Shown here piece after piece: positions 1-56,593 of a stretch of DNA of 64,000 nucleotides. Source of the stretch: Gigantopelta aegis (Eukaryota; Mollusca; Gastropoda; Neomphalida; Peltospiridae). Each line of letters begins with the position of its first letter. The stretch's first letter is position 1. Location of the stretch: assembly GCF_016097555.1 (NCBI RefSeq), contig NC_054712.1, positions 40,925,426 through 40,989,425 on the forward strand. The letters run 5' to 3'. The notes beneath the pieces are model-generated. The model ran no database searches and was not told the origin of the DNA. It saw nothing but the letters and a program-made list of their open reading frames with translations. The position numbers and the translations under genes are program-made.

Positions 1-733
1 GGAACGACAGGTATAAAGAACAAACCTGTATGTGTGTGTGTTTAACAGCAGGGTATGACAAGTTGATTGGTGTGTGTGTCACATCAGGAATGACAAGTTG
101 ATTGGTGTGTGATTGACATTAGGGTATGACAAGTTAATTTGTGTGTGTGTGTCACACCAGGAACGATAGGTATAAAGAACAAACCTGTATGTGTGCATGT
201 TTAACATCAGGGTATGACAAATTGATTGGTGTGTGTTTGACATTAGGGTATGATAAGTTGATTGGTGTGTGTGTCACATCAGGAATGATGGGTATAAAGA
301 ACAAACCTGTATGTGTGTGTCTTTAACATCAGGGAATGACAAGCTGATTGGTGTGTGTGTCACATCAGGAACGACAGGTATAAAGAACAAACCTGTATGT
401 GTGTGTGTTTAACAGCAGGGTATGACAAGTTGATTGGTGTGTGTGTCACATCAGGAATGACAAGTTGATTGGTGTGTGATTGACATTAGGGTATGACAAG
501 TTAATTGGTGTGTGTGTGTCACACCAGGAACGATAGGTATAAAGAACAAACCTGTATGTGTGCGTGTTTAACATCAGGGTATGACAAATTGATTGGTGTG
601 TGTTTGACATTAGGGTATGATAAGTTGATTGGTGTGTGTGTCACATCAGGAATGATGGGTATAAAGAACAAACCTGTATGTGTGTGTCTTTAACATCAGG
701 GAATGACAAGCTGATTGGTGTGTGTGTAGATTC
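1..733. repeat. Splice-donor minisatellite at FANCA exon 21
   Basis: Two copies of a 367-bp higher-order unit (base 1 onward matches base 368 onward almost exactly), each built from 30-60 bp sub-units. Read on the minus strand, the sub-units are versions of the last ~60 nt of FANCA exon 21 plus its 5' splice site. The motif CATACAG followed by GTTTGT recurs near 22, 180, 303, 390, 548 and 672; only the last is the exon end used in the model. The array continues off the left edge of the window. Confidence 0.85.
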
Positions 734-810
734 AACTTGTAATTCCTCAGAACTCAATCTACCAAGAACGAGCTCTATCTTCTCACTGATGATGGATATG
801 AGTTCACTAA
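674..810 (-). CDS. FANCA: FANCA exon 21
   Basis: Phase 1 in, phase 0 out. It encodes [17 protein letters not shown], matching human AQVAVISERLRAVLG, then a linker ending DVKDTHIQ. The 5' splice site is CAG/GTTTGT. The last ~60 nt of this exon lie inside the array at 1-733, so several equivalent donors follow downstream and the true exon end could be one of them. Confidence 0.8.
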
Positions 811-3800: not shown

Positions 3801-6800
3801 ACAAACCATATATATTTCAGGGCTAGCTCTGATTCAGCACATTTCTCCAAATTATCTATTAAACTTCAAAAATTGCGGAAACTCAGTTAATTTGTAACAA
3901 AATATCAATTATTACTTGAAATTATTTTAATAAATTAAAATAAAATTTGCCAATAATTTTTTAAATATGAATTTGGCGAGTACGAGAGGTAGCCCTCTAT
4001 TTGAAGCACAATATATGAGCTAATGTAGACAAAGTACGGTGAAACCTTTCAAAACCAGACCCTCTGTAAACTGGAATTCCCTCAAAACCGGACCCTCTGT
4101 AAACCGGAATTCTCTCAAAACCGGACAACTTAACCTCAATAAACCAGATACCTCTTAAAACTGGACATTTTACATGGTCCTGAGGGTGTCCGGTTTAGAA
4201 GGGTTTCACTGTAAATATAACATACAATGTGAATTAAAAGTAATACAAACCGGTCTGGCTTTCAGCAATGCTGGTAGAAATTTCCCAATAAAATAAGGTT
4301 TCCGAAAAATGCTGAAAAACAATAATTTATTATTTAAAAGATTTGTTTAATTTGAACTACACAATGTACATCTCAATTCTGACAGTTCTGCACTGCTATC
4401 CATGCTATCCGATCAGTGCTACACAGACACAAGTCTTAGTGCATACACATTTAATCTTACAGCAGTTCTCACCAATAGTATTTCTGCAAGAAAGAATTTT
4501 TGGGTATGGCGCTATGGAATTGAATGCAGCCACATGCAGTCAACATGGGGTATAGGAGGCCTAGCCCAGAAAGAAAATGAGTTATGTTTAGGGTTAAGGT
4601 TAAGAAAATCATACAGTAATGAAAAGAGTAATTAATTTTGTCAAAAGATTAACTTAAAAAAAAAATCTGAAAAAAAAAAGTGGGTATATGGCGCCATACT
4701 CGTTTTACCCCTCTGGCAGAAACCCTGACAAATTCTTTACTTCTCTGTCAACCTGTTTTCTTTCGCTCCTCCTTCATGTCTCTCACTCTGCTCTACTTCT
4801 TTGTTTTCTGTTTCTCTTTAATCTGCATTCATAACTTATTTACCGGCCTCGGTAACATAGGTACTGGGTTCGGATCCCAGTCGAGGCATGGGATTTTTAA
4901 TCCAGATACCGACTCCAAACCCTGAGTGAGTGCTCCGCAAGGCTCAATGGGTAGGTGTTAACCACTTGCACCGACCAGTGATCCATAACTGGTTCAACAA
5001 AGGCCATGTCTTGTGCTATCCTGCCTGTGGGAAGCGCAAATAAAAGATCCCTTGCTGCTAATCGGAAAGAGTAGCCCATGTAGTGGCGACAGCGGGTTTC
5101 CTCTCAAAATCTCTGTGGTCCTTAACCATGTATGACGACATATAACCATAAATAAAATGTGTTGAGTGCGTTGTTAAATAAAACATTTCTTTCTTTCTTT
5201 CATAACTTATTACTTTATGTTCAATTACCCACAGCTGTTGTTACTACTTCTATCAGTTATGTATATGCGCTACTATTGACTGTTAACCGGCCTCGGTGGT
5301 ATCGTGGTTAAGCCATAGGACTACTGGCTGGTACAGGTAGGTACAGGGTTCGCAGCCCGGTACCGGCTCCAACCCAGAGCGAGTTCTTAAGGGCTCAGTG
5401 GGTACATGTAGGTGTAAGGCAACTACACCCTCTTCTCTCTCACTAACCAACTAACAACTAACCCACTGTCATGGACAGACAGCCCAGATAGCTGAGGTGT
5501 GTGCCTAGGACAGCATGCTTGAACCTTAATTGGATATAAGCACGAATATAAGTTGAAATGAAATTAAATTGACCGTTATCTTGTTTACATGAATATATCT
5601 GTCCTATGTACAACTTTGTTTCCGGTTTCTCTTTAATCTGCGGTCATAACTGATTACTTTATGTTCAGTTATCCACAGCCATTGTTACTGTTTCTATCAG
5701 TTATGCTACTATTGACAGTCATCTTGTTCATCTTGTATCTGTTCTACATTTGTAGGGAAAGGTCCTAATATAGACTAATGCCTGTCGACCAATCGCTACC
5801 ACCATGTAAAAGACGGAATAAATATTGTTTAAAACAATTCTGACCGGGCAATAAATTTTTTAAATTTAATGAACACATGTTTAATACAAAATCTTGCATA
5901 TGTAGTTAGGTCTTCACTCGACAGACGTCATGTCCTTTTCTACACACACTCGTAGTATGATATTCTTGTGCACTACAAACGGGTGCAATAATCAACATGG
6001 GAAAACAAATGGCATATGGATCTGCATATCTCTATCTCCAGGCTGTGGCAACCACCAGTGAGGTTCAGTCACCCACTGCATATATGTATTCCAGGCTGTG
6101 GCAACCACCAGTGAGGTTTAGTCACCCACTGCATATATGTATCTCCAGGCTGTGGCAACCACCAGTGAGGTTTAGTCACCCACTGCTTTCTCTTGACTAA
6201 AGGTTGACAGGTCTGCACCCAATGCACATTGGCAAACTGTTATACCAATATCATACTGTGAAATTAGCAGCAACATAATAACAAAATTCACTTCCACTGC
6301 TAGTTTGATGCATTTAGATAAGTTAAGTTACAGTTTACCTATTAACTATAGATGTTCATAACAGTTATACTGTTTACCTATTAACTACAGATGTTCTTAA
6401 CCGTTACATGTAGTTACAGTTTACCTATTAACCTACAGATGTCCATAACAGTTAAGTTACGGGTTATTTATTAACCTACAGGTGTTCATAACAGTTCAGT
6501 TACAGTTTACCTATTAACTACAGATGTTCTTAACAGTTACAGTTTACCTATTAACTACAGATGTTCCATAACAGTTAGTTACAGTTTACCTATTAACCTA
6601 CATATGTCCATAACAGTTAAGTTACGGTTTATCTATTAACCTACAGATGTGTATAACAGTTAAATTACAGTTTACCTATTAACCTACAGATGTCCAGAAC
6701 AGTTAAGTTACGGTTTATCTATTAACCTACAGATGTTCATAACAGTTAAATTACAGTTTACCTATTAACCTACAGATGTTCTTAACAGTTAAGTTTACTT

Positions 6801-9800
6801 TTTAATTACAGATGTTCATAACAGTAAAGTTACAGTTCACCTATTAACCTACATATGTTCATAACAGTTAAGTTACAGTGTACCTATTAACTGCAGATGT
6901 TTATAAACAGTTAAGTTAGTTTAGTTTAAACAATATTTATTCCATTTTTTCTGGTGGGATTGGTCGACAGCATACAAGCCTATATTAGGACCTTTCCCTA
7001 CATTTTTTAACAAACAAACTGACAAAATGACAGACAAAGTACATATAATAACTAACAATAATAAAACATAATAGAAGATAATTAACATAAAAGTGAGCTA
7101 CAGAATGAAAAAGTACATACAGAGAATTAAGACAGGTAGAGAAATGAAACGGTGCTATTAAGTTTCAAAACGTTTAGTGCTAACAATAAAGTCATGAACG
7201 GATTTAAAAATGTCTATATGTCTATGACACAAGAAAAGTTCAACATCTTCCACATGATGCTCACAAGCACATTTTGGATTATCTAAGAGATGACGCTTAA
7301 ATTTATGACCATTTAGGTTACTGTCACCCATTCTAAGTCGACAGTGTAGTATCTCCTGACGTTTTTCACCATAATAAAAGTATGATAGGATAGGTTCAGT
7401 TGCATTAGTTGCATATTTGAACGTAGTTAATGATTTAGTTTTTGATGTTAGAAGACATATTATTCCATAATTTAACTGACGAGGGAAAGAACGAATTTGC
7501 AAAGAGCGTTGTATGACAAAAGAAAGTATTCAAGTGATCTGCATTACGTAAAGTTACAGTTTACCTATTAACCTATATGTTCTTAACAGTTAAGTTATAG
7601 TTTTCATATGTGAATGTTTGTACATACATGTAGCTGTATGTAAGCAGTATACCACTGAGATGGAACAAGCCAGGAGAGAAATGAAAGAAAGAAATGGTTT
7701 ATTTAACAACACACTCAACACATTTTATTTACGGTTCTATGGTGTCGGACATACAATGTATGGTTAAGGACCACACATACTGAGGGAGGAAATCTGCTGT
7801 TGCCACTTCATGGGCTACTCTTTTTGGTTAGCAGCAAGGTATCTTTTATATACACCATCCCATAGACAAGATAGCACATATCATGGTATCAGTCGTGGTG
7901 CATTGGCTGGAACGAGAAATAAGCCAGGAGAGTGTAATTATTTACCATCTGTCTCATCGTACCTGGCTTCCATCACAGAAGATGGAACTTTTCCTGTCGA
8001 CTCAAATGCAGTTATAGCTGTCAGGACATCCTGATCACTTCTCAGTAGACTCTACAAACAAAAATGAAGTCCTTCACAATTTACGATATCAGTCGCCAAG
8101 CCATCAGATATTGACTGAATTTACCCTATAATTTACCCATAATATTCATGTCATAAACCCATTTGATATTTACCATTTACAACATGAACAACATGTAACA
8201 GTTTCTAGACTACATCCTCCAACAACATGAATGATGTGTAACATGAACAATATGTAACAGTTTTAGACTACATCCTCCAACAACATGAACAATGTGTAAC
8301 AGTTTCTAGACTACATCCTCCAACAACATGAACAGTGCGTAACAGTTTCTAGACTACATCCTCCAACAACATGAACAGTGTGTAACAGTTTCTAGACTAC
8401 ATCCTCCAACAACATGAACAGTGTGTAACAGTTTCTAGACTACATCCTCCAACAACATGAACAGTGTGTAAGTTTCTAGACTACATCCTCCAACAACATG
8501 AACAATGTGTAACAGTTTCTAGACTACATCCTTCAACAACATGAACAATGTGTATCAGTTTCTAGACCACAACCTCCAACAACATGAACAATGTGTATCA
8601 GTTTCTAGACTACATACACCAACAACATAAACAATGTGTAACAGTTTCTAGACTACATACTCCAACAACATAAACAATGTGTAACAGTTTCTAGACTACA
8701 TACTCCAACAACATAAACAATGTGTAACAGTTTCTAGACTACATACTCCAACAACATAAACAATGTGTAACAGTTTCTAGACTACATACTCCAACAACAT
8801 GAACAATGTGTAACAGTTTCTAGACTACATACTCCAACAACATAAACAATGTGTAACAGTTTCTAGACTACATCCTCCAACAACATGAACGATGTGTAAC
8901 AATTTCTAGACTATATCCTCCAACAACATGAACAATGTGTAACAGTTTCTAGACTACAGCCTCCAACAACATGAACAATATGTAACAGTTTCTAGACTAC
9001 ATCCTTCAACAACATGAACAATATTAGTTTCTAGACTAAATCCTTCAACAACATGAACAATGTGTAACAGTTTCTAGACTACATACTCCAACAACATAAA
9101 CAATGTGTAACAGTTTCTAGACTACATCCTCCAACAACATGAACAATGTGTAACAATTTCTAGACTACGTCCTCCAACAACATGAACAATGTGTAACAGT
9201 TTCTAGACTACATCATTTAACAACATGAACAATACGTAACAGTTTCTTGACTACATCCTCCAACAACATGAACAATATGTAAGTTTCTAGACTACATCCT
9301 TCAACAACAAGAACAATGTGTAACAGTTTCTAGACTACATCCTTCAACAACATGAACAGTGTGTAACAGTTTCTTGACTACATCCTCCAACAACATGAAC
9401 AATATGTAACAGTTTCTAGACTACATCCTCCAACATCATGAACATTGTGTAACAGTTTCTAGACTACATCCTTCAACAACATGAACAATGTTAGTTTCTA
9501 GACTAAATCCTTCAACAACATGAACAATGTTTAACAGTTTCTAGACTACATCCTTCAACAACATGAACAGTGTGTAACAGTTTCCAGACTACATCATTTA
9601 ACAACATGAACAATACGTAACAGTTTCTTGACTACATCCTGCAACCACATGAACAATATGTAACAGTTTCTAGACTACATCCTCCAACATCATGAACATT
9701 GTGTAACAGTTTCTAGACTACATCCTTCAACAACATGAACAATGTTAGTTTCTAGACTAAATCCTTCAACAACATGAACAATGTTTAACAGTTTCTAGAC

Positions 9801-12800
9801 TACATCCTTCAACAACATGAACAGTGTGTAACAGTTTCCAGACTACATCATTTAACAACATGAACAATACGTAACAGTTTCTTGACTACATCCTCCAACC
9901 ACATGAACAATATGTAACAGTTTCTAGACTACATTCTCCAACAACATGAACATTGTGTAACAGTTTCTAGACTACAGCCTCCAACAACATGAACAATATG
10001 TAACAGTTTCTAGACAACATCCTTCAACAACATGAACAATATTAGTTTCTACACTAAATCCTCCAACAACATGAACAATATGTAACAGTTTCTAGACTAC
10101 ATCCTTCAATAACATGCACAATGTGTAACAGTTCTAGACTACATCCTTCAACAACATGAACAATACGTAACAATTTCTAGACTACATCCTTCAACAACAT
10201 GAACAATATGTACCAGTTTCTAGACTACATCCTTCAACAACATGAACAGTGTGTAACAGTTTCTAGACTACATCATTTAACAACATGAACAATACGTAAC
10301 AGTTTCTTGACTACATCCTCCAACCACATGAACAATATGTAACAGTTTCTAGACTACATTCTCCAACAACATGAACATTGTGTAACAGTTTCTAGACTAC
10401 AGCCTCCAACAACATGAACAATATGTAACAGTTTCTAGACAACATCCTTCAACAACATGAACAATATTAGTTTCTAGACTAAATCCTCCAACAACATGAA
10501 CAATATGTAACAGTTTCTAGACTACATCCTTCAATAACATGCACAATGTGTAACAGTTCTAGACTACATCCTTCAACAACATGAACAATACGTAACAATT
10601 TCTAGACTACATCCTTCAACAACATGAACAATATGTACCAGTTTCTAGACTACATCCTTCAACAACATGAACAGTGTGTAACAGTTTCTAGACTACATCA
10701 TTTAACAACATGAACAATACGTAACAGTTTCTTGACTACATCAACAATATGTAACAGTTTCTAGACTACATCCTCCAACAACATGAACATTGTGTAACAG
10801 TTTCTAGACTACAGCCTCCAACAACATGAACAATATGTAACAGTTTCTAGACTACATCCTTCAACAACATGAACAATATTAGTTTCTAGACTAAATCCTT
10901 CAACAACATGAACAATGTGTAACAGTTTCTAGACTACATCCTTCAATAACATGACTACAGTTCCTACATCAACAACATGAACAATATGTAACAATTTCTA
11001 GACTACATCCTTCAACAACATGAACAATATGTACCAGTTTCTAGACTACATCCTTCAACAACATGAACAGTGTGTAACAGTTTCTAGACTACATCATTTA
11101 ACAACATGAACAATACGTAACAGTTTCTTGACTACATCAACAATATGTAACAGTTTCTAGACTACATCCTCCAACAACATGAACATTGTGTAACAGTTTC
11201 TAGACTACAGCCTCCAACAACATGAACAATATGTAACAGTTTCTAGACTACATCCTTCAACAACATGAACAATATTAGTTTCTAGACTAAATCCTTCAAC
11301 AACATGAACAATGTGTAACAGTTTCTCGACTACAGCCTCCAACAACATGAACAATATGTAACAGTTTCTAGACTACATCCTTCAATAACATGCACAATGT
11401 GTAACAGTTCTAGACTACATCCTTCAACAACATGAACAATACGTAACAGTTTCTAGACTACATCCTTCAACAACATGAACAATATGTACCAGTTTCTAGA
11501 CTACATCCTTCAACAACATGAACAATGTGTAACAGTTTCTAGACTACATCCTCCAACAGCATGGACAACATGTAACAGTTCTAGACTACAACCTTCAACA
11601 ACATGAACAATATGTAACAGTTTCTAGACTACATCCTCCAACAACATGAACAATAAGTAACGGTTCTAGACTACAACCTTCAACAACATGAACAATATGT
11701 AACAGTTTCTAGACTACAACCTTCAACAACATGATTAATATGTAACAGTTTGAAGACTACATCCTTCAACATGAACAATGTGTAACAGTTTCTAGACTAC
11801 ATCCTTCAACAACATGAATAAGGATTTACTTTTTTTTTATTACATCTTTGGGCTCGAAAAAGGAAGTAAATTATGGCCTGCTGTTATGTTTTTAAAACAG
11901 TATGCCAACAGAAATATGTCCTGATTAAACAAATAATGGCCTGCTGGAAATATGACAGCATGTGGTTTGGGATAGTGTGTGAACAACAGATATATATTTG
12001 AGAGCATTATGGATTTAAAATATAACAGAATCTTACGGTAAACACCAGATGAGATAATCAGTTTCCAAAAAAAAAAAAAGACCTGCTTTTCAGGGATCAC
12101 GATTTCGAACCCTGCATCTCACCTGCTTTGTGTCACTCTGACCAGCAGTGCTAACCTCATAGATACCATCATCGTTCAACGTCTCCTGTAAGAAATGAGC
12201 AGATCAGTAACATCATTTTATATATCCTAGTAGAAAGAATGTGCAGATACCATCACCATTAAAAGTCTCCTGTAAGAAATGAACATATCAGTGACATTGT
12301 TTTGTATATCCTAGTAGAAATTACCTGCTGATACCATCACCGTTTAACATATCCACTAGGTCAGTTAATTGTTTATTAAATATTTTAACTAAGAATAATT
12401 TATTTTAGTGATAGCATGCCTGCCTATATTGTGTAGGAAGTGAGAAAGACAAGAAAGAACACATAAATTACCTTCAAATCGGCCAGTCTTGTCTTTGCCA
12501 AGGCAACATAGTCGGATAAAAGATCTCTGCATTTCGGTGGAACATACGGAGGTCGTACAATGTGAACCTGAACAAATCAGCAGAACAATGATATCATTTT
12601 ATAAAAATAGAAAGTATGTCTTGTAACTAATAAAAATAGAAAGTATGTCTTGTAACTAGTCGTAAAAATAGAAAGTATGTCTTGTAACTAGTCGTAAAAT
12701 AGAAAGTACATGTGTATGTCTTGTAACTAGTCGTAAAAATAGAAATTATGTTTTGTAACTAGTCGTAAAAATAGAAAGTATGTCTTATAACCACTCATAA

Positions 12801-15800
12801 AAATAGAAAGTATGTCTTGTAACTAGTAAAAATAGAAAGTATTTCTTGTAACTAGTCGTAAAAATAAAAAGTATGTCTTGTAACTAATCGTAAAATAGAA
12901 AGTATGTCTTGTAACTAGTAAAAATAGAAAGTATGTCTTGTAATTAGTCGTAAAATAGAAAGTATGTCTTGTAACTAGTCGTAAAAATAGAAAGTATGTC
13001 TTGTAACTAGTCGTAAAATAGAAAGTATGTCTTGTAACTAGTAAAGCTAGAAAGTATGTCTTGTAACTAGTAGTAAAAATAGAAAGTATGTGTTGTAACT
13101 AGTCGTAAAAATAGAAAGTACATGTTGTAACTAGTCATAAAAATAGAAAGTACATGTTGCAACTAGTCATAGAAAGAGAAACAAGTCGTAAAAATAGAAA
13201 GTATGTGTTGTAACTAGTCCCAAAAATAGAAACTATATTTTGTAACTAATTGTAGAAATAGAAAGTACACATGTACATGTATGTGTTGTAACTAGGGATG
13301 GGACGATTATTCGATGTTACCGATAAACGCGGTTTTAGGCCCACGGTTCGGTGCACCATTTTCCAATTTGCGAACCGCGGTTCATTTTGGTTTTTTTTTT
13401 TAAATATGGTACATGTACATGTATAAAAATTTTCACACATTGCTGGCAATCTTGATGACCCGCAAAGTATTTCGGCCAATTACAGCATTTGATTCCCTAA
13501 ACCGGACATGTTTGCATGGGCAATATTTTTTTATAAACTTGAAACAGCCTTTATTGGGAATATAAACTTATGTAGTGTTATCTCCTGATATTTGACTGCA
13601 AATTATAATTAAAAACACTCTGCTGATGAATGTCATATTGGAGCTACATGTAAAAATATATATTTTTTTTTTTAAAGCAAGTGGCATCAACCACACATAC
13701 ACATGTAGTCAGTTCTCTGTAAACAGTTTACATTGAGATTTTTCCCTTTTTGCACAGTGCGATATCTGTATAAAATTTACCTTGAGATTTTTCCCTTTTT
13801 GCACAGTGCAAATTCTGTAAACAGTTTACCTTGAGATTTTTCCATTTTTGCACATTGCAATATCTGTATAAAGTATACCTCAGTCCTTGCCTTTTGAAAA
13901 ACAAAGGTGAGTGAAAAATCGCACACCTCAAAACGCTTAGGCGAGTGAAAAATCGCACTCATCAAAATGCTAAGGCGAGTGAAAATCAAGCATTTATTAA
14001 TTTAGTAATTGGTACATGTAAATGTAGAGACATATGTTGCAAAAATGAACCAATAAACCAATGTTTTCTTCTAATTTTATGTTGTTTGGTTCATTAGTGT
14101 AGTCTGACTTCTTTTCCCTTTCAGGAATGGAGTTATAGTTTATTAAAAAGTTTTAGGAGTAGTACTATAGAAATATAATTATGACATGTATACACTGAAG
14201 CAAACCATTTGATTTCTTAATTACAATATGTATTATTCAGATAATTTGATGCACACAATTATACATATACCTTTTCAGTGTTAGATGGTTTGATAAACGT
14301 GCAGCTAAACATATATAGGAACCAACTTGTCTCGAATTTGATTATTATGTACAACGAACATGATTAGGATAGTTGGGATGGGAAAAAACACTGGTTCCGA
14401 GGAGGTGGTTCATGAACTACGACACAAGCATATCAGGTGTGCACTGCCGACTCATACTCGTGAAACGTGGGCCTACAATTACTTCAAATGATAGTGTTAG
14501 TTGGGACACTGACATTCACATGGCATTTTTAATTCAACATGACGCAACCAATCTCCCTCCCTCAACATTTTGTAACATGTCATTTAACCTACCGCTACAA
14601 GTTATGAACAGCTCTGACGGCGTTATATCATTGATCTAGAACGGCCCCATTGTTGTTAATAACAAAATACACAAACTCTGAAAAAAATCTTTCATTGCAA
14701 AGGATTTTATTCAAAACGTGGGATGCCATAATAAAGATAATATAAAAAACCCATAATTTTAGACACCATCATCAATGCGTATTAAGTTGTCAAGTAGACC
14801 AGCGTGTGCGTGCAGAATTCCAAGAGTAAAAATAATCTGACACCAATAGCTCTGATTGGTCAATATGCCACAGACTACTGCGCATCAAATCATGTTCCAG
14901 TCACGTGGTCTGTGACTTTCTAACAAATGAAACAAAAATTAAATAGTCGGAAATGATCATTGATTACTGTTACTATAGTGTGTACATATATACATATCTA
15001 AATAACATATGCACATTTATTAACCTCTGGCTGAAATACAAATATTTAAATGAAGTTTTTTTTTGTGTTTTTTTATTATTCAATCTAATTTTTTATTTTT
15101 TTAAAAAAAGTATAAAATTACACGATTGCCATTTTCTGGACCTTACGTAAGCTTTGTAGGCTAACAGTTATGAACTAATCGAGACAATTTGACCGACTTC
15201 GCTGATTTCCGTAACAAGTTCATTTGTGTAGGCTACAGAAGCCACTATTTAATTCAATCCCATTTCTTTTTTTGTCATAACTATATGAACAGTATAAATG
15301 AGTTATCCTTATCAGACGATCTATTACCTTACAAAAGTGAACTGTTTCTATTTAATAATAAATTAAATAGGCAAAGAATTTTGATCGGATTGGTACATCT
15401 TCGAAGATGTCTATTAAACCTGTGTTTTCCGATTTGTATAGCACAGATAAGTACCAGTCATATATTAAAATCTTGCATGGACGCTACCGTTCTCGTAACA
15501 TTTTTTTCTGGTATTATTAAATGGATCTTTCTATCAGCTACATAAGATACATGTACAATGTAAATAGTGGCAATCAATATACAAAATTATTTTATGTGCA
15601 CTGTTTGTTAAGTGTAACGTGCATTATTTTTCACACTCGCCAGATTGAAATTATGTGCGCTGTACGAGCGCGATCGCACCCGCGCACCTTAAAAAGCAAG
15701 GTCTGATACCTTGAGATTTTTCCATTTTTGCACAGTGCGATATCTGTATAAAGTTTACCGTGAGATTTTTCAATTTTTGCACAGTGCGATAACTGTATAA

Positions 15801-33800: not shown

Positions 33801-36800
33801 TAATTAAGTACCTAACTTAACTTTTGTTTCCTGAATATACCGCTGCTTTCGCTCTTCGTTAATTTTGGTGACAGGGGTAAAACGGTACATCTTGCATTTA
33901 CCATCGATTTTGTGGTTTAAAAAAACGGTGCGCATTATATTGTGGTTCATGTATTTTTTCTTAGAATAAATGTTGGGGGTGCGCATTATACATGGGAAAA
34001 TACAGTAATTGTTTTATTTTAGGCTAATGCTTTTAATCAAAAAGGTGAGCTCACTGGCACTACGTTAGACTCCCACCCAGACATCAACGATTAATGTCAT
34101 GTGTGTTACTTTATGTCCAAAAACAAACTAAGAGAAAATTTCAAAAGTAAAAAATAATCTACAAGTATAAACACTAAACACTTTTTAAACTTAGACAAAT
34201 CACTTGAATGAAACCATTAATGTGTTACATACAATTAGTACGTTTTTGATTCATTGTTTTAGTGAAAAAAACGTTCACAAACTAACTGATGTACAGTTCT
34301 GACAGGTTACCTCCCTTGACAGAACAGTGATGAAATGCGTTCTACTGAACTGCTGCTCTTCAATAAATTTCTGTACAAGATGTAAACACATCGTCAGTTT
34401 CTCCTGAAATAACATTACACTTAATAAACATATCATCAATGTCTCCTAAAATCACATGTCATTAAAGTTTCAGTACACTTAAATAAATAAATAAATACTT
34501 AAAAACGTACATACATTTATAGATAGATAAGACAGACAGACAGACAAAAAAAGATAATACATAAAAAACTAACTAAAAATAAATAAACAAATAAACAAAC
34601 AATAAACAAACTATATAATGGACAAACGTATAAATAAATTAAAGAATTAACTTTAAAAACAAAATCTCTGTCATCTTGAGGAACTGATAGACAATAATGA
34701 CTGCTAATTTGATAATAAAATTGATCATTTTACCAATAACAAAATTCATGAAATATTGTAAATCAGTTTACTTCCAAAACAAAATGTGGTCCCAAAAATA
34801 GTGATTGAGAATAACAGCCACATATGCATGTAAGTAAGTAAAACTTTCTTGATTTTTTTTGTGCAGTTCAAACATTTACTTATCTAAAACATTTTTTATA
34901 AACCCCACGAACATTTAACTTATCTTTAAACAAACAATTAAAATTTTATGTCTTTATAAACTTTTAAATTAAAATATGCCAGGAAAAGTTATAAACTTGT
35001 ACCCCTCAAAGTATTAAAATTAAATAATTGATGAGGTTTTTTAATGGAATGGGAAATAATAAAGTAAACCATACCAAAAGACAGACAATCCAAGAGGTGA
35101 CATTAAGTGATACAAAATAGCAGAAAGTGAAAATGTGTAAATCCACATCTTTGAAGGAAGGAAGGAAATGTTTTATTTAACGACGCACTCAACACATTTT
35201 ACTTTACAGTTATATGGCGTCGGACATATGGCGTCGGACCACACAGATATTGAGAGCGGAAACCTGCTGTTGCCACTTCATGGGCTACTCTTTTTGATTA
35301 GCAGCATGGGATCTTTTATATGCACCATCCCACAGACAGGATAACACATACCACTGGCCTTTGCTATACCAGTCGTGGTGCACTGGATGGAACGAGAACC
35401 ACATCTATGAGTCCTGCACCTGATGTTTGTCAAAAGTCAGTTGATTATCTTACTAGGTTTAATGGTGTAACAAGTTCTTTACAGCTGCTGTCAAAATCAT
35501 TATGTCGGATCATTTCTACAATCTTTCCTGCACATGTTTCAGCTGCTGCAATGCTGGAAGTTTGACATTTAGCCGTTGATTCTTGGTAGAGACATTGAGA
35601 TACTGAAAAACACAAAACATGTTAGACTCTATCTGGTTAGTTGATTCTTGGTAGAGACATTGAGATACTGAAAAACACACAATGTGTTATATTGTATCTG
35701 GTTAGTTGATTCTTGGCATAGACATTGAGACACTGGAAAACACACAAAGTGTTACACTATCTGGTTAGTTGATTCTTGGTAAAGACATTGTGACACTGAA
35801 AAACAAAGTGTCAGACTCTATCTAGTTATCCATTTAAAAAAACACACACAGTGTTACTCTGTATCTGGTTAGTCCATTTTTGGTAAAACATTGGGTAACT
35901 AAAAACATTCACAAAATGTTTCTATCTGGTTAATTAAATTAAAAACGGTTCTATGGATGTTCCTATTAATCAAGTACTTGGAGCAATTCTCACTTGAACC
36001 ATTTGACAAATTAACCAAGTACAACTTTTATGAATTGAACTTGACTAGAGTTACTTCCCTTATAGATCCACAGTCATTGGCCACAATTATTTATGTTATG
36101 TGTTTCAATAGGCCCATGGATTTTTGTACGCACATTTGCCTGCCTGGAGGCAACATACGCTGAAAACAACAACCCCTGTTGTCCAGCTCTTTCTTCCAGG
36201 ATATTGGTTTAAACAAACACACCCACTAAACCTGGCCAAAGTACTCACATTCTTCACAAAAGTACTACATTTGCATGAGCTGGAATGTACCACAAAAACG
36301 CCTTCAATGTTAACACATGCTCTCCCATATCAACTTCAGTCTAACAATTGCCCCTTCAAATAATCACAGTCAAACAGCAGACTCCTTGTGCATACATATT
36401 TCTGGATTTTGGTCAACCAAATGGTAAGTAACTGTGATCTGTGGCCTACTGGTCAAGGTGTAATAATTTCTTTTAATTTGCATAATTCAAGTTTTCATAT
36501 TCAATTTAGTGTCAGTCTGCAAATGTAATACTGTAATATAATAGAACTAGTGGTTTTCTCAGTCTTAGTCTTCAGGTGTCAAACTGTTATATTCAGTGTA
36601 CATTAAATGTTTCTTCATCAATATACCGATTTAATAAATAATCACACAGTCTATTAATTAGTATTACATGAGGCAACATTGTTCCTTCTGTTTTTAAATC
36701 TCCTATCTTTTAACAATTATTTAATATTGTTTTAGAATTAAAAAAAAACTACACCCACACAGTTTGTGTAAATAGGTAACAGGTTTAAGTTCAAACTATC

Positions 36801-39800
36801 ATTTACTTTAGTTTGGCGAAATAATTTCATGTAATAATTGACTTTTTTTTTTTAAATAACTGACAATTTCTACCATTTTTGAAGTTTAATAGACAATTTG
36901 GCAAATTGTTTTGCTCACCCAGAGTTAACCCTGAAGCTGAGCCAAGCACAAGTGAGAATTGACAAGCTGAGTCAAACTGATAATCATAAAAAGCGCTAAC
37001 AAACTAATGTGTAATATTTGGTTTTTAAAATAAACAACAGGACTCAAACTTAGGAATTTGTCTCCCACAGCAAGTTGCAAAATAATTGCTATGGGTGAAA
37101 CAGCCTACCAATGGCAATTTTGATTCTGGCTATGGCAATTTTATAAAAAGTGGCACTCATAGCAAATAAACATGACTGAAAGGTAATTTTGCTGTATGTA
37201 GACATATTTCAAATGTGTAAATGTTAAATACTGGCAGATAATATACAACAGGTGTATACATTTTGCTATTGTTGAGGAGTTTTACTAATGGCACGTCAGT
37301 GATGCTCTCTATCTATCTCAATTTATATCTCAATGACGGCAATTGTCGTCGATGCTGTTGTTAAGTTTGAGCCGTGAAACACTACGGAAAACCTCAGTTA
37401 TAGTGGTGAAGGAATGAACGAATGAATGAATGAATGTTTAACGACACTCCCAAAGTGGTGAAGGAATGACATCAACCAAACACATCAAAATTACCTACAT
37501 AGACAGGTCATATAATTAGCCACGTTCTGTGCAGCATAGTGTTTACCTGCTGGTAACAGCACTGTAACATTCGGGCTGGAGGGTGAGATGGCTGGTGCTG
37601 CACTACACGAATCAGTAGCTGTCCCCACATGAGATGAATCAGTGGCTGACCCCATATGAGATGAATCAGTGGCTAGCTTCACATCAGATGAATCAGTGGC
37701 TAGCTTCATATGAGATGAATCAGTGGCTGGTCCCACATGAGATGAATCAGTGGCTGACCCCACATGAGATGAATCAGTGGCTAGCTTCACATGAGATGAA
37801 TCAGTGGCTGGTCCCACATGAGATGAATCAGTGGCTAGTCCCACATGAGATGAATCAGTGGCTCGTCCCACATGAGATGAATCAGTGGTTCTCAGCTGCA
37901 GAATCTTTAAGAAACAATACAGAGAAACAAGGTTATACTCTACTTAAATGATGTAGTCCTGAGCGAAACTAAAGTAAAAACTAGACCTAAAATTATAACA
38001 TTAAAAGTTTGTATGATAAAAAAAAAAACAAAAAAAACAGATTTTATTTATGCATATTGCATGAGTATGAGTATATTCATTAAATAAATAGCACAGATTT
38101 TATCACTTATAATGCAAGAGTGTCAATATATTAATTAAATAAAAGAGTTCTTATCATGTATACTAAAAGTGCTAGTATGAATATTCATTAAACAAATACA
38201 AAATTTTATCATGTATAATAAAAGTGTGATCATATTAAATAAATAAAACAGAAATTTTTATCATGTACATAATGCAACTGTGTGAGTATATATTATGTGC
38301 ATTCACTAAAAAAGTAAATCACTGCCAACCTCAGACAGCAAACTGTCAGTGTTCTGTCGTGAAGTCACTAGTTGAAAGACAGCGCTGCGCAACTGTGATC
38401 GACTGGCCTGAGACAGAGAAGGACGCGCAGACTGCCGCATCTCTAGAACACAAAGACAATTACAATTAGAACATAAAGCCTATATTAAACAATACACCAT
38501 ACCATTAAATAATGAGGACTGACACATCTCAGGAATGTTCACAAAGACAATTACAATTAGAACATAAGCCTATATTAAACGATACACCATACCATTAAAT
38601 AATGAGGACTGCCACATCTCTAGAATGTTCACAAAGACAATTACAACATAAAGCCAGCATTAAACGACACACCATGCCATTAAATAATGAGGACTGCCAC
38701 ATCTCTAGAACACAAACATAATTACAATTAGAACACGAAGACAATTACAATTAGAACATAAAGCCTTCATTACACGATACAACATAAATTAAATAAGAAG
38801 GAATGCCACATCTTTAGAACACAGACAATTATAACATAAAGCCTGCATTACACGATACAACATACAATTAAACAATGTGGACTGCCGTATCTAATTTAAT
38901 TTAAACTCCAAACATAGTAAAGTGGAATTGGGGCGAGTTGACCAACCACTGGGGCAAGTTGGCAACATTTTCAGGGCAATTAAGTTGACTAAACAGTGGA
39001 ACGGTTTGGTAGGGAGCAGGTTGACCAACAGCTGGGGCTGGTTACTAGGGAGCTGTTTGACAAACTGCTACTGTGCTGGGGCAGGTTGGTAGGGGGCGGG
39101 TTGACCAACTACTGGTGCGGGTTAGTAAGGTGTGTATTGACCAATGCCTGGGGATGGTTAGTAGGGTGCGTGTTGACCAACTACTGGGGAGGGTTAGTAG
39201 GGGGTGTGTTGACCAACACCTGGGGCTGGTTAGTAGGGGGGTGTTGACCAACGCCTGGGACTGGTTAGTAGGGGGTGTGTTGACCAACTACTGGGGCTGG
39301 TTAGTAGAGGGGTGTTGACCAACTACTGGGGCTGGTTAATAGGGGGGTGTTGACCAACAGCTGGGGCGTGTTACTAGGGGTGTGTTGACCAACTACTGTG
39401 GCTGGTTAGTAGGGTGTGTGTTGACCAACAGCTGGGGTGGGTTAGTAGGGGGGTGTTGACCAACTACTGGGGCTGGTTAGTAGGGTGTGTGTTGACCAAC
39501 AGCTGGGGCGTGTTAGTAGGGTGTGTGTTAACCAACGCCTGGGGCTGGTTAGTAGTGGGTGTGTTGACCAACAGCTGGGACTGGTTAGTAGGGTGTGTGT
39601 TGACCAATGCCTGGGACTGGTTAGTAGGGGGATGTTGACCAATGCCTGGGGCTGGTTAGTAGGGTGTGTGTTGACCAACGCCTGGGGCTGGTTAGTAGGG
39701 TGTGTGTTGACCAACAGCTGGGGCGGGTTAGTAGGGTGTGTGTTGACCAACGCCTGGGGCTGGTTAGTAGGATGTGTGTTGACCAACAGCTGGGGCGGGT

Positions 39801-42140: not shown

Positions 42141-42241
42141 ATGTCGTACATGCAAACAACCGTGATCTCGCACGCAAGGCGAGTCAGGCGTTTGTATAAA
42201 GAAGGATGTCGGGTTTTACAATCGCATTTCGGCACACAGAG
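42141..42241 (+). CDS. NDUFB9: NDUFB9 exon 1
   Basis: MSYMQTTVISHARRVRRLYK then EGCRVLQSHFGTQ, ending phase 2 at CAGAG/GTATAG. Contains the LYR-family motif (R-R-L-Y-K). The first ATG gives an N-terminus the same length as in human. Confidence 0.93.
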
Positions 42242-45200
42242 GTATAGAGTAGTTATTCACGTGCAGGGTTGATACCTTTTGTATTTACTGTTCATTTGTG
42301 TATAAATTTAATAGTCACAGTCAAGGCCAGACAAGGGCAAAGAACAATTTCTTGAATTTGAGAATTGTGAATTGAGGTGGCACGGACTGACTGAGTCTGA
42401 CAGACAATAATAAATGCAACATGATTTTGCACAGTATTGAGAGGAGGGTTTAGAATGGGCGATTATTCGTAAAGCTCAACAATGACAAAGTGTATACACC
42501 TGGTGTGTATGATGATGATCTGCTATAGCCCTAGTTCATCAAGATTAACTTTGGCTACAAGTGCAAGCACTACCAAAGGTTAATCCTGGGGACGAACAAC
42601 GCCATTAGCGCCCTTCCGAGCAATTTTGCTCAGAACGGAATTCAATCCAAATTGCGGTCAAACTAAAAGAAAAACGACTGTCATCACGTTTCTCCACCCA
42701 AATCGTGTACTGTGATCTATTTGGAGCATATGGACACTAAGAAATACTTACTTTGAAATGATCTTCACTTTGAATTAAAGGAAAAACGACCGACTGTATG
42801 ACTTGTTTTTAAAACGCGGGGTACATTATGGGAGGAAAATGAAACTCGGAACAATCTTGTATGTGGAAAAGGATCGGTGAAGTCATTTCTCGTTTCATAA
42901 TGAATAAAACAAAAACCATAAAACTAAAAATTAATTAAAGTTAATAAAATAACTTAAAAGTAAAAATAAATGAAATGAAATTAAACTTTAAAGTTAATAA
43001 AAAACCCCAAAAAACCCATTAATTAATAGAAATGAAATAAAAATTATGATTTACACACACACACATATTATATATATATACTCTTCAAAAAAAGAAACGC
43101 AAAAGGGTACAAATGGGTTATAACTCCGATTTTATGTTTCCTACCGGTTCATGCTTTGTGAATATAAGGTCATTGCATGTCCCAAACACATTCCCACGGT
43201 TACATTCGATAAAACGCAGCTACTGTACAATAAAGTTCCAAAATGTGAATATTCGCAAAAACGCAGCCACGTGCAAACCATGTCACCACTGCACGTGCGT
43301 TGTCTGCACGTGCAACATGAACACCGACAGTATAAAAGTGCAGGGTGTTCGCTTGCCTGGCCTCTGTATCTGGCCGACAGTTGACAATCCAGGACATGCC
43401 ACGTCTCAGTGAACCGCAGAGAAACAATGCCATCGCCGACTAGACGCAGGCGAATCCAGAACGGCCGTTGCCAGGGCATTCCATGTGTCCCCAAGCACCA
43501 TCTCCAGACTGTGGGACCGTTACCAGCAACATGAATCAACACGTGACCTCCCTAGATCCGGTCGACCACGGGTCACTACCCCCGGGCAGGACCGCTACAT
43601 CCGGGTACGCCACCTTCGGGAACGATTGACTACTGCCACCTCCACAGCCGCAGCAATACCAGGTTTTGCGCAGGAGATCCGACCAGACCGTACGGAACCG
43701 CCTACGTGAGGTAGGCATTCGTGCCAGGCGTCCAGTTCGAGGTGTCATCTTAACACCACAACACCGTCGACTCCGACTGCAGTGGTGCCAGATTCATCGA
43801 CAATGGCCTCAACTGCAATGGAGACAGGTGTGGTTCAGTGACGAGTCCCGATTTCTGCTCCGACGTCATGATGGAAGATGTCGTGTGTATAGGCGTCGTG
43901 GTGAACGTTATGCGGCAAACTGCGTGCAGGAAGTGGACAGATTCGGCGGGGGTAGTGTCATGGTGTGGGCAGCCATCTCACACACTGGCAGAACTGACCT
44001 GGTCCACGTGCAGGGCAACCTGAATGCACAGGGCTACATTGACCAGATCCTCCGGCCACACATCGTTCCAGTTATGGCCAACGCCAACGCAGTGTTCCAA
44101 CATGACAACGCCAGGCCTCACACAGCACGTCTCACAACGGCTTTCCTACAGAACAACACATTAATGTCCTTCCTTGGCCATCGATATCACCGGATTTGAA
44201 CCCAATTGAGCATCTATGGGACGAGTTGGACCGACGCCTCCGACAGCGACAACCACAGCCCCAGACCCTGCCCGAGCTGGCAGCAGCCTTGCAGGCCGAG
44301 TGGGCCACCATCCCCCGGGACGTCATCCGTACTCTGGTTGCTTCAATGGGCAGGCGGTGCCAGGCAGTTGTCAACACACGCGGAGGCCACACCCGGTATT
44401 GACTCCAGATGACCTTGACCTTGGTGGTGTGTCTTATCACTTACTCACAATGGACTAGAGTGAATTGTGAACAATCCTGCAACATTTGGTAATTATCGGA
44501 CTCACCATTCAATAATTAAATCAATTCTCCAAATGTTACGACAATGTGGTTTTGCGTTTCTTCTTTTGAAGAGTATATATATATATATATTTTTTTTTTT
44601 TTTAAAGAAAAAAACAGTTCATTAATGTCTCTAAAAATAACTAAAACATAAGTACTAAGTTTTAAAATTACTTAACTGTCTTTTTTCTGAGTTTTCTTCT
44701 AAAATCGTCCGGGTGTGTGTGGGGGGGGGGGGGGGGGGGGGGGGGTGCCAATGAAACATATTTCTCTCTCCTTTTAATGAGGAATCATTTCTGTTTAACT
44801 TATGTAAAATCCTGAACAGGGCACACATCAAATTTGGTATATCTTGTTCAACTCTCTGGCCTCCTCGTGGCGAGCAAGGGGCAACAGTAACGTTTTTACG
44901 TACTGGCAAACAAGAGAGAAATATGTTTCATTCCCCCCCCCCCCCCCCACACACACACACACACACACACGGACGATTTTAGAAGAAAACTCAGAAAAAA
45001 GACAGGTAAGTAAGTTTAAAACTTAGTGCTTATGTTTTAGTTATTTTTAGAGACATCAATGAACTGTTTTTTTCTTTAAAAAAAATAATATATATATATA
45101 TATATATAATATGTGTGCGTGTGTGTGTAAAACAATTTTTATTTAATTTCTATTAATTAATTAATGTTTTTTTTTTATTTATTAACTTTAATTTCATTTA

Positions 45201-48200
45201 TTTTATTTTAATTTATTAACTTTAATTTATTTTTACTTTTAAGTTATTTTATTAACTTTAATTAATTTTTTGTTTTATGGTTTTTGTTTTATTCATTATG
45301 AAACGAGAAATGACTTCACTGATCCTTTTCCACATACAAGATTGTTCCGAGTTTCATTTTCCTCCCATAATGCACGACGTGTTTTAAAAACAAGTCATAC
45401 AGTCGGTAGTTTTTTTTTTAATTCAAAGTGAAGATCGTTTCAAAGTAAGTATTTCTTAGTGTCCATATGCTCCAAATAGATCACAGTACACGATTTGGGT
45501 GGAGAAACGTGATGACAGTCGTTTTTCTTTTAGTTTGACCGCAATTTGGATTGAATTCCGTTCCGAGCAAAATTGCTCGGAAGGGCGCTAATGGCGTTGT
45601 TCGTCCCAAGGATTAACCTTTGGTAGTGCTTGCACTTGTAGCCAAAGTTAATCTTGATGAACTACTATAGCCCGAGTTTGTAAGAGAGCTATTGTCCGAA
45701 CCGAATTGTTAACAACTTACAAAAAATGACTCTCCTACCTTTAATTGCCGTTAGATTTCCTCCAAAGTTTGTCCAGACACAAATCGTAAAAAAACCCACT
45801 ACAAATATACAGATTCCACACACGAGACTGCAACAATGTCGCTGAGATTGCATAGGGAAAAATACATGCATTTTTCTGCCGTCTGCCATGTTGCTTGTTT
45901 ATGGAATACTTTTCAAGAGGGGTGAAAGCCTCCAAAGTATGTGACACAATATGAAATCAATGATCTCTTGTGGTATCATTAAACATTTTTTAATAATAAT
46001 AATTAATAATATGACGTCATCACATCTGCTTTTATATCATAACATGTTATGACGTTGTTAGATTAAGTCCTATCCTTTCACCCCTCTTGGAGAATATTCC
46101 ATAAAAAGTCAAAATGGCAGCTAGCACAAAATTACATGCTTTTTGCCCTATGCGCTCTCAGCGAAGTCGATATAGGTGACATAGTTATCATCTGGTATGT
46201 GGAAACTGTGTCATTGTAGTGGTTTTTTCAAGATTTCTGTCTGGACAAACTTTGGAGGAAATCTTAACGGCAATTAAAGATAGGAGAGTAATTTTTCGTA
46301 GTTGTTAACAATTTGATTCGGACAATAGACGGACATTTGGATATGAATACGCTCTCATTACAGTCGGAGACCAAGCTATGTATCTTTTTGGCAATTGCCG
46401 ACAACCAAAAAGTTGTCAAAGATTTCCGCTCTAATACCACAACAATCCTATGATTGATGTCAAATACATTTACATCAACCATTTTCGAGTTGCTTGATTA
46501 AAAAAAAATCAGATATTAATCACTAATACACACACTACAAAAAGAAACCCGACAGCACCCACATTCAGCTAAGCTTCGGCAAACTCCGGACAGCAGAATT
46601 CTAAGTTTGCCCATGGCAGTTCTTTACAAAATTAAGACAAATTCTTAAGTTTAAGCCCTGGATAATACCGGCTGAGGGGGCAGGGAGGGAGGCAAAAGTG
46701 AAAATGGCAGAGTTCGACAAATCCAATGCCTTGGGCTAGTGCTTTTAACACGGGGCTAGTGATAAATGCAAAACCAGTAGGCTGATGGGCTAGTGGCTTT
46801 AAAAAAAAAACCAAAACTCTTCTAGCTCACAATAATTTTTGTCCTCCACTGAGGTACGTTTGATAAATGTTATTCTGAAATTGGTCATCACATAATATCA
46901 ACAAATCAATAAGTATATATACTTTATATATATATATATATATTAATGTTCGACTTGAACTAGATTTCTACAAAATGCAGTACTTAACATGAAGTTTCTA
47001 TGTACATCGTCAGGTTCAACAATACACACAATGCAGACTTTGTTTTATTTTCACTTTCAAGTTTCATGTCCAGATAGGAAATACTAACAGGGCTAACTCT
47101 GGCACTCGCCAGATTTGCCAGTTGCGAATTTTGAAAGCAGTTGGCAAATTTTATTTTCATTTGGCGAAATAATTTTATGTAATAAGTTAATAACTGACAT
47201 TTAAAAAAAAACCAACTTGATTTCTACAATTTTTGAAGTTTAATGGACAATTTGGCGAAATATTTTGCTCACCCAGAGCTAGCCCTGACTAAGCTTATAT
47301 AACATGCATGTTTTGATTGTACAAGTCACGTGGTAGTAAAATCTTGCACATGTATTGGTGTAAACAAGGTGAAAAGGTGTGAATCGCCAGTCCCAATTAA
47401 TTAACAGGCTAGTATATACCTGAAGTACAACCCCAGTCATGTTTAGAAGTACTGTGTTTGTGTTATTTATCTATTGTCTTATAATTTAATGCCTCACTTA
47501 CTTGGGATAGGGATGTTGGCATTCGGGGAAAACTATATTGTCATGATAACAGCTCCGATCCAGCTTGGACAACATTTCACACTTGTACATGATAATACTT
47601 TTTTTTCTTTTTTTTTTACATCTATTGATCAGTTAATGAGTTAAATCTTGCCAATATATATGTTGATATCTGTCTGACATGGGATATTATATTTCCCTGT
47701 AGGCTATTTGAGCAACTGACATCACCATTCCAGGTGATAATTAACTACAAAATACACTGAACAAAACACCATGCATTATTGTGTTGCACACCCACATATT
47801 GTGCATTTAATTCTTTTGTTAGAAAGAGAGGAGTTTGTTAAATTACTTACCCACTCTGTATAAGTAGGCGGGAAGGGGGTCTTAACATATTCTTGTATGA
47901 CTGTTAACTTTATTCATTATGAAGTTACTTGCCAATTCATCAGTTTTCATTTGATGCAAACAGATTATATATGGTGAGCACATGGTTATTATTCAACAAA
48001 GAACATTCTAGTTTTGATTTTGGCTGTGCAGTTATTGATAATTGGAGGGCTAGTGAGAGATGTTATACTTCCAGCCCCTTTTCATTTCAGTTTTGTTGGT
48101 CGCTACTGTGGAGCTAACACTTTTATTATGTTCTGGTCACATGTTATCATTACAGCTTATAAATGTGTCTTTGTCGTCTCATTGCAGACATGTTTTCCGC

Positions 48201-51200
48201 TACAACGCGGTGCTGCTGAGGGCGAGATTTGACGAGAACCTGAACGAGACAGACATGCGCAAAGTGAAGAAGTTGCTGTTGGACGGAGAGCGTGAACTTT
48301 TCCTCAAGACTCACCCACAGCCACTCAAATGTACGTTCAACTACTCTGTCTTGTGGTAGTCATTAAAACTCTCTTCAAGACTCACCCACAGCCACTCAAA
48401 TGTACGTTCATCTACTCTGTCTTGTGGTAGTCATTAAAACTCTCTTCCTCAAGACTCACCCACAGCCACTCAAATGTACGTTCATCTACTCTGTCTTGTG
48501 GTAGTCATTAAAACTCTTCCTCAAGACTCACCCACAGCCACTCAAATGTATGTTCATCTACTCTTGTCTTGTGGTAGTCATTAAAACTCTCTTCCTCAAG
48601 ACTCGCCCACAGCCACTCAAATGTATGTTCGTCTTTTCTGTCTTGTGGTAGTCCTTAAAACTTCCTCAAGACTCACCCACAGACACTCAAATGTATGTTC
48701 GTCTTTTCTGTCTTGTGGTAGTCATTAAAACTCTTCCTCAAGACTCGCCCACAGCCACTCAAATGTATGTTTATCTACTCTTGTCTTGTGGTAGTCATTA
48801 AAACTCTCTTCATCAAGACTCGCCCACAGCCACTCAAATGTACGTTCATCTACTCTTGTCTTGTGGTAGTCATTAAAACTCTCTTCATCAAGACTCACCC
48901 ACAGCCACTCAAATGTACGTTCATCTACTCTTGTCTTGTGGTAGTCATTAAAACTCTCTTGATCAAGACTCACCCACAGCCACTCAAATGTACGTTCATC
49001 TACTCTTGTCTTGTGGTAGTCATTAAAACTCTCTTCCTCAAGACTCACCCACAGCCACTCAAATGTATGTTCGTCTTTTCTGTCTTGTGGTAGTCCTTAA
49101 AACTTCCTCAAGACTCACCCACAGCCACTCAAATGTATTTTCGTCTTTTCTGTCTTGTGGTAGTCCTTAAAACTCTTCCTCAAGACTCGCCCACAGCCAC
49201 TCAAATGTATGTTCGTCTTTTCTGTCTTGTGGTAGTCATTAAAACTCTTCCTCAAGACTCGCCCACAGCCACTCAAATGTACGTTCATCTACTCTGTCTT
49301 GTGGTAGTCATTAAAACTCTCTTCCTCAAGACTCACCCACAGTCACTCAAATGTATGTTCGTCTTTTCTGTCTTGTGGTAGTCCTTAAAACTCTCTTCCT
49401 CAAGACTCACCCACAGCCACTCAAATGTATGTTCATCTACTCTGTCTTGTGGTAGTCATTAAAACTCTCTTCCTTAAGACTCACCCACAGCCACTCAAAT
49501 GTATGTTCATCTACTCTGTCTTGTGGTAGTCATTAAAACTTTCTTCCTCAAGACTCGCCCACAGCCACTCAAATGTATGTTCATCTACTCTGTCTTGTGG
49601 TAGTCATTAAAACTTTCTTCCTCAAGACTCGCCCACAGCCACTCAAATGTATGTTCATCTACTCTGTCTTGTGGTAGTCATTAAAACGTTCTTCCTCAAG
49701 ACTCGCCCACAGCCACTCAAATGTACGTTCATCTACTCTTGTCTTGTGGTAGTCATTAAAACTTTCTTCCTCAAGACTCGTCCACAGCCACTCAAATGTA
49801 CGTTCATCTACTCTGTCTTGTAGCCATTAAAACTAGGAGTGGGGTGTTGCTGAACACACTTATCTCAAAGTGCAATGGAGAGTAACTGACTGAGCCTAGA
49901 ATATGTTGCATGTTGTTTTACAAACAGTACATAAAGAATTTGAGAATAAGTGACTATGTCTAACCTATGTTAAATGTTGTTTTACAAACAGTATATAATG
50001 AATGAGAATAAGTGACTATATAATATTAAATGGTGGGGTTTTTTTTACAAACACTATATTTTACAAACACTACATTATGAATGTGAGAATAATAAGTGAC
50101 TATATTACCCACCGGGTGAGCACCTGGGTGTCTTGTACAAATTCTGTTCTTATCTAGTAGTGTGTATTAGTAGCAAAATGTCTCACTGAGTAATGTCAGT
50201 AAATTAATGTAAAACTTTACATTATTTGATTGTGGGTAATAAATAAAATACCACACTCAGTTTAGCTAGATAACATTTTATGAAACTTGTAAACATCCCA
50301 TGGTATCTGACCTTACTTTTGTTCATGCAGATACTAACATGAAAATTTAGCCCATTTAATTAAATTTATATGTAGCAAAAACGAGTGTAGTGTTCTATAT
50401 GTATCTAACTTATGTTAAATGTTTGGGTTTTTATAAAAAAAACAGTGCATAATGCATGTGAGAAGAAAGTACATACCTATTGCTTGCAGTTACTAACAAA
50501 GCTCTACAAGATGACTTTTCCAGCAGGTCACCTGTTATGAGCAGTCAACCAATGAGCTATCAGTATACGGGTTGAATCCTTTTGACCAATGGACTAAATG
50601 TGAAAAATGATGTTATTTCAAGCAAGAAACTACAATTTAGACAGAACTAATGTACGGCAATATAAGAGTGCCTTTGTTGTATACATCACTTTGACGTGGA
50701 TGTTTTGTGTTTTTATTTCAGTTCCCAACTCTCCAGGTGGTGTAGCCTATGCCAGAGAGCCTCATGTACCTGACTGGGTAAGTTTATCTTCACATGTAGT
50801 GTTCTCGCTGGGTGAAAATTAAAAGAGTGGTGACTGCACAACCCCAGGGCTTCTAGATTATGGTAGCCCCACTCCCATGGCTAGTGATATTCAGTGTTGT
50901 GCTAGTAAATAACTACTATAACTAGCCCGACGGCTAGTGGAAAAATGAACTCTTGTCAAATGCTGCATTTAAGTCTTATTTTGTAAATATAAATATCCTG
51001 CCCTTATTCCCACCCCAAATCTAAGGGGGTTTAAGCTCTGTCTCCCTCTTTAGATGACATATCTGATTATTACTATTAGTAAAATTGTATTTATTTAAAG
51101 TAGGACTAGTGAATTTTTAATCATGGCGAGTAAATTTTTAAAATCACTGATCCCATGGCTAGTGGATTTTTATAAAATTCTAGAAGCCCTGAACCCCCAC

Positions 51201-56250: not shown

Positions 56251-56593
56251 AATTTAAAAGAAATAACAGACAATACTTATAATTAAATTTTAGCTATACT
56301 TGCTAATAATAACACTAAAAGTTTCTTACTTTATTTCGAATTAGTGTTGGTCCATAAACAACGCTTAATAAGGCAACTTGCCCATATAAAATGATATTCT
56401 CCGACGACGTCATTTTCACGTACATCAAGAAATTAACAAACTCCCGTTGCATTGCCAATTTATCGGTGACCTTTTGACATTTTAACAGATGCGTCACGTT
56501 CAAGAATTTCCAACTGGTTGGCGCTGAACATTGTGCATCACGAGCATCCCCCAGTTCTTTTACTGGCTGGATGTTGGGTTGCATTGACTTTAT

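Follow-up and report, generated by a model that had tools for sequence, protein, structure and literature searches.

The window analyzed here, a single assembly stretch of 64 kb that forms the whole basis of this work, carries a FANCA gene on the minus strand and an NDUFB9 gene on the plus strand. The FANCA exons, located by tblastn with the human (7kzp_A) and Xenopus (6lhs_B) FANCA proteins, run down from 38.4 kb past the low end of the window, and the borders of E2 to E21 (674 to 38442) were set base by base. Once joined, E2 to E21 form an uninterrupted frame of 772 amino acids that matches the Pfam families Fanconi_A_N (E = 6e-77) and FANCA_helical (E = 3e-32); E8 and E9 were assigned by phase, length, and weak similarity. 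NDUFB9 (42141-52400; tblastn with the human protein; Pfam Complex1_LYR, 1.8e-5) comprises four exons at 42141-42241, 48188-48330, 50722-50777, and 52266-52400, also with borders set base by base. Together, the 20 FANCA and 4 NDUFB9 exons define 46 splice boundaries.

Other sequences populate the same stretch. Upstream of FANCA exon 2 lies a 2.7-kb array of 36/71-bp units (39006-41748), whose coding-strand unit contains TACTAAC and then CAG, a succession that we take to be branch point/acceptor-like. FANCA exon 1, a candidate seed of this array, was not found in the window by tblastn, including a low-threshold run that returned mostly noise. A dispersed repeat family, possibly a short interspersed element, occupies about seven sites (4975-5283, 7680-7922, 25991-26311, 26420-26575, 32745-33065, 35152-35414, and 56590-56783). 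Two related rhodopsin-type receptor genes (Pfam 7tm_1; self-similarity) are arranged in tandem on the minus strand as single open frames (59431-60480 and 62787-63671), and a 65-bp array of 13.8 copies (60432-61330) ends ∼15 bp upstream of the likely start codon of the first receptor, as read from its frame.

All 20 FANCA exons are uninterrupted in the start phase of their human counterparts and end in the human end phase. Ten exons (E6, E9, E11, E12, E13, E14, E15, E17, E18, and E21) have the human length, whereas E10 and E19 each correspond to two human exons. E3 measures 358 nt, against 94 nt in human. Because of this agreement with the human gene in start and end phases, the FANCA introns appear, on this evidence, to be ancestral and the arrays described below younger.

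Tandem arrays at splice borders

Arrays were called unsupervised with TRF, and merged arrays with a period of at least 15 within 1-52400 were considered. Softer penalties with a score of at least 100 yielded 31 arrays, of which 11 cross splice borders, and these are exactly the eleven borders that a first-pass annotation had assigned to repeats built from the junction itself. Default settings returned 29 merged arrays, 9 of them crossing borders, all on that list, and a score of 50 returned 55 arrays and 12 crossings, the additional one being a doubtful case at the E8 donor with a period of 16. At a score of at least 100, therefore, 11/46 boundaries (24%, matching the quarter estimated in that annotation) lie within arrays and 11/31 arrays lie on boundaries, with five donors and six acceptors affected. 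The copies extend head to tail in the intron, and their number ranges from 2.0 to 42 (TRF), as the annotated span of 2 to more than 40 had indicated. The exonic portion inside the arrays differs from the 14 to 60 nt previously stated; it measures 7 to 54 nt, with only 7 in E6 and E7, and the position of the border within the unit is variable.

Among the FANCA donors, all on the minus strand, the E12 array (17414-19829; border 19814/19813) consists of 42 copies (TRF) of a 57-bp unit with 16 exonic nt, and GT is present in 22/34 aligned copies; these counts, here and below, include the live copy. The E14 array (15707-15905; border 15858/15857) has four copies (TRF) of a 49- to 50-bp unit with 48 exonic nt (GT in 3/3 aligned), the E6 array (32164-32304; border 32298/32297) 2.8 copies of a 50-bp unit with 7 exonic nt (GT in 3/3), and the E21 array (1-727; border 674/673) a composite 36/122/367 unit with 54 exonic nt (GT in 6/6 aligned). 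The single NDUFB9 case, at the exon 2 donor on the plus strand (48297-49834; border 48330/48331), comprises 21 copies of a 74-bp unit with 31 to 34 exonic nt, and GT is kept in 21/21.

The acceptor arrays belong to FANCA and thus also lie on the minus strand. The E20 array (1490-1885; border 1518/1519) has 8.8 copies of a 46-bp unit with 29 exonic nt (AG in 9/9), the E4 array (35575-35945; border 35602/35603) 4 copies of a 65-bp unit with 28 exonic nt (AG in 5/5 aligned), and the E2 array (38430-38893; border 38442/38443) 3.5 to 5 copies of a 90-bp unit with 13 exonic nt (AG in 3/5 aligned). The E16 array (12161-12347; border 12185/12186; unit of 84 bp, 2.2 copies, 25 exonic nt) and the E5 array (34383-34465; border 34403/34404; unit of 42 bp, 2 copies, 21 exonic nt) each keep AG in 2/2. 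The weakest case is E7 (31558-31632; border 31564/31565), with two copies of a 36-bp unit and 7 exonic nt, in which the copy matches little beyond the AG and only the live copy could be scored for AG. The sole array found inside an exon, again as annotated, is the coding array of E3 (37589-37888, minus strand), which is in frame and has 10 to 11 copies of a 27-nt unit.

In favor of an assembly artefact stands a duplication of 367 bp at the edge of the window, which is 99% identical. However, distinct substitutions or indels distinguish the copies in the aligned arrays, and several two-copy cases are old (78 to 83% identity). We consider such an artefact highly improbable.

Junction copies were also sought by aligning each border (30 exonic plus 12 intronic nt) to at most 1500 bp of adjoining intron and, as a control, to 300 distant stretches. 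For 14/46 borders the match was better than all 300 controls, and 13 of these matches span the border; the fourteenth, at the E19 donor, is exon only. The 13 comprise ten of the eleven named borders plus the E9 acceptor, the E12 acceptor, and the E20 donor, three borders missing from a list that was otherwise borne out. E7 reached only p 0.02, below the top level of the scan, as did the E18 acceptor (p 0.023). The E12 acceptor (minus strand; border 19955/19956) is adjoined by a 31-bp, 13-copy array (19974-20389; TRF span, 19974-20377), the distal end of which (20366-20389) holds the copy of its junction. The other two additions, both on the minus strand, are single degenerate copies, 34 bp upstream of the E9 acceptor (27597-27622) and 116 bp downstream of the E20 donor (1256-1282). 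The affected borders number 11 to 14 in two genes, the last three being weaker.

The coding sequence repeated at E12, E14, and NDUFB9 exon 2 aligns to the human proteins (tblastn), and at E16 a resemblance to human is visible by eye. Because of this conservation, the intronic copies at these four borders derive from the exon, a direction that we assume for the remaining ones. No related pair emerged when the junction arrays were compared with each other, for which reason they seem to have arisen independently. In intron 14, the E14 unit is found a second time, in an array (13716-13895) that lies 1.8 kb from the one at 15707-15905, as if an insertion had divided a single array. The E16 array (12161-12347) is weakly similar (76% over 58 bp, E 6e-5) to 12567-12619, in the intron directly upstream of E15.

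Copy identity is 69 to 99% in junction arrays, 69 to 94% in arrays of the intronic flanks, and 69 to 95% in deep intronic arrays (means, calculated by hand, of 83, 83, and 80%), and copy numbers overlap among the three classes. On account of these similar identities and overlapping copy numbers, a single duplication process seems active everywhere. The median unit (by hand) is 50 bp in junction arrays, 31.5 in flank arrays, and 41 in deep arrays; longer junction units are expected if border crossing is commoner for longer duplications.

The units carry the live GT or AG, as had been claimed and as the aligned junction-spanning copies demonstrate. The site is intact in every aligned copy of 8/11 arrays, a pattern that could be read as selection for spare splice sites, i.e., as duplicated junctions being kept for redundancy or regulation. 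However, AG persists in only 3/5 copies in E2 and GT in only 22/34 in E12, where site divergence is 0.21 versus 0.13 to 0.18 in the rest of the unit, and retention elsewhere is, by a rough estimate, near that expected from low divergence. Moreover, use of the second NDUFB9 donor would insert an in-frame stop after 9 codons, as read from the frame. Since the E12 sites decay like the remainder of the unit, nothing points to selection for spare sites, and we regard it as very unlikely. Splicing at copies deeper in the intron would lengthen the product. From the reading frame we infer that splicing uses the copy attached to the exon, which would make junction duplication silent.

Two ways of counting border crossings

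The choice of null decides whether arrays meet borders more often than expected. When covered bases are counted, there is no excess, since 24% of boundaries but 34% of intron bases lie in arrays (20% versus 32% with default TRF). In the present sequence, the overlap of arrays with borders is therefore no higher than with random intronic points, nominally the outcome that the first-pass annotation had named as refuting its idea, although each expanded array is counted many times in this comparison. In a seed null, which reduces every array to a single unit, the expectation is 1.8 to 2.4 crossings, against the 11 observed (Poisson p 3e-6 to 4e-5). Default TRF gave 1.6 to 2.0 expected versus 9 observed (p 4e-5 to 2e-4), and a score of 50 gave 2.5 to 3.1 versus 12 (p 1e-5 to 9e-5). 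Border-crossing arrays are thus ∼4 to 6 times as frequent as random seeding on the collapsed sequence predicts. We think that this null, in which an array enters a single time through its founding unit, is the fairer of the two, because a growing array gains no borders and present-day bases therefore overcount introns. The earlier assertion that the overlap is more than chance placement suggests consequently stands for founding units within this window and falls for bases covered.

Founding units number 5.25 per kb at junctions, 1.20 in flanks within 200 bp, 0.41 in deep intron, and 0.46 in exon interiors (11, 8, 11, and 1 arrays, respectively). Junctions exceed the flank alone (11 of 19, p 0.0016) as well as all noncoding sequence (p 6e-7), and a stringent count requiring at least 10 exonic nt gives 9 of 30 (p 6e-7). 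Flanks are in turn denser than deep intron (8 of 19, p 0.02). As this gradient exists and the contrast of junction with flank is the weaker one, the greater age of near-exon DNA may account for part of the junction signal. In the junction-copy scan, 13/46 borders versus 12/278 intron points were positive (Fisher p 2.7e-6), with the qualification that the intron control skipped 194 points deep in arrays, which would erase the excess if counted as positive. The p value would be 0.05 had only ∼10.5 kb of gene been exposed when the arrays arose. Because the window had been offered for this very pattern and the cut-offs (score of 100, 200-bp flank, and 10 exonic nt) were fixed after the pattern was visible, all these p values overstate the genome-wide case.

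These reservations feed the strongest rival explanation, which dispenses with any initiation bias: duplications would be random, introns would turn over fast through transposon insertion and deletion, and an extreme window would have been picked from many. Surviving arrays would then gather in the old DNA beside exons, as the denser flank arrays suggest, and the introns do contain dispersed repeats (5.0 of 52.4 kb recognized from the window alone). The lack of excess by bases covered and the use of one preselected window point the same way. Set against this, junction density is still ∼4 times that of the flank, junction arrays show no greater divergence than deep arrays, and the excess persists in the stringent count of arrays with at least 10 exonic nt. 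We deem this combination of intron turnover and window choice possible, although we lean against it.

In a further rival reading, duplications are started at splice borders by a junction-specific process, for example paused transcription, a nucleosome edge, an R-loop, or the exon-intron GC step. In its favor, the first array unit holds 11/46 points at the border itself, 7/46 at a depth of 30, and 4/46 at a depth of 60, and the same measure averages 2.8% at depths of 100 to 1500. Donors and acceptors are both affected, and GC amounts to 46% in nonarray exon DNA versus 34 to 36% in introns. However, the border position within the unit varies between 7 and 54 exonic nt, numbers are small, and the coding-strand GC skew of the junction arrays is mixed in sign (mean, 0.05), which also speaks against R-loop ends, the example put forward in the first-pass annotation. 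We judge a start of this kind rather improbable. That splice borders are true hot spots of array birth in this genome, through a process linked to transcription, splicing, or the chromatin of exons, and that genes thereby build up ladders of splice sites with time, appears to us unlikely.

Proposed origin and comparison with known junction arrays

Our preferred reading, to which we assign a probability of about 0.55, is that the arrays are junction-spanning minisatellites, whose excess at borders results from seeding at exon edges combined with loss of exon-internal duplications. Segments of ∼20 to 120 bp would be tandemly duplicated throughout the DNA of the window, some of them expanding into arrays. 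Where a duplicated segment by chance took in a splice junction, splicing could continue at the copy contiguous with the exon body; the protein would then remain unchanged, the additional copies would turn into intron, and the array would be free to grow. Duplications may begin more often in exons or at their edges, in DNA that is older, GC-richer, and not of transposon origin; those wholly within exons would mostly be eliminated, while those crossing an edge would survive because they are silent. With a single exon-internal array in the window, this elimination stands as a proposal. Exon-edge seeding, which we propose as the cause of the border excess, fits a 36-bp two-copy array (52397-52470) whose first base directly precedes the NDUFB9 stop codon and which extends into the 3′ untranslated region, another edge at which duplication would be silent. 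Tolerance alone, the other cause originally suggested, should not raise junction density over that of equally tolerated introns.

An excess that held throughout the genome would mean that tandem duplication is not blind to gene structure and that introns grow partly by copying their own ends. The arrays, ranging from two degenerate copies to 42, would then also offer a natural series for studying the choice of the spliceosome among near-identical adjacent sites, and would bear on disease variable-number tandem repeats (VNTRs) such as that of ABCA7. Should the excess fail genome-wide, the window still shows the need to count array coverage and array founding separately.

Two known mechanisms were also considered. 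A mobile intron-like element (introner) finds no counterpart, as no two junction arrays match, and recurrence elsewhere in the window is limited to the E14 unit in its own intron and the weak E16 match. For the creation of introns by tandem duplication (the Rogers model), a derived intron position and an exonic AGGT serving as both splice sites were looked for. The end phases of the 20 exons equal those of human, and the units consist of exon plus intron of one existing border. Only one border is repeated in 9/10 of the introns concerned, and in intron 6, where both are, the units are unrelated. The duplication is nonetheless of the same kind as in published cases of intron gain, where the duplicate includes the intron-exon junction with its splice signals (PMC4974935). 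There a new intron arose, whereas here no intron appears new, and we give this origin practically no credence.

Extended junction ladders had initially been thought undescribed, a view that two reports contradict. In human genes within segmental duplications, TRF repeats occur at the exon-intron boundaries of many genes (PMC2812944). Those repeats are variable and are described there as making novel introns or alternative splicing, whereas in FANCA the introns appear ancestral and the copies were added to them. The human ABCA7 intron 18 VNTR has a 25-bp unit, the first two bases of which are the live exon 18 donor, and ∼12 to 427 copies; transcripts can keep one unit when a copied donor is used, and skipping of exon 19 increases with length (PMC5954066). 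No recurrent junction arrays within one gene were recognized in the open-licence PMC literature, among the matches listed and judged by titles and abstract starts. The arrays of the window share with the ABCA7 VNTR a live splice site in the unit and head-to-tail copies extending into the intron. However, the ABCA7 repeat concerns one donor in one gene and starts from the GT without exonic sequence, whereas the present arrays, known from DNA alone, affect donors as well as acceptors, at 11 to 14 borders of two genes, and have exonic sequence in the unit. What is new is thus the recurrence of junction arrays, a single such array having already been published in ABCA7.
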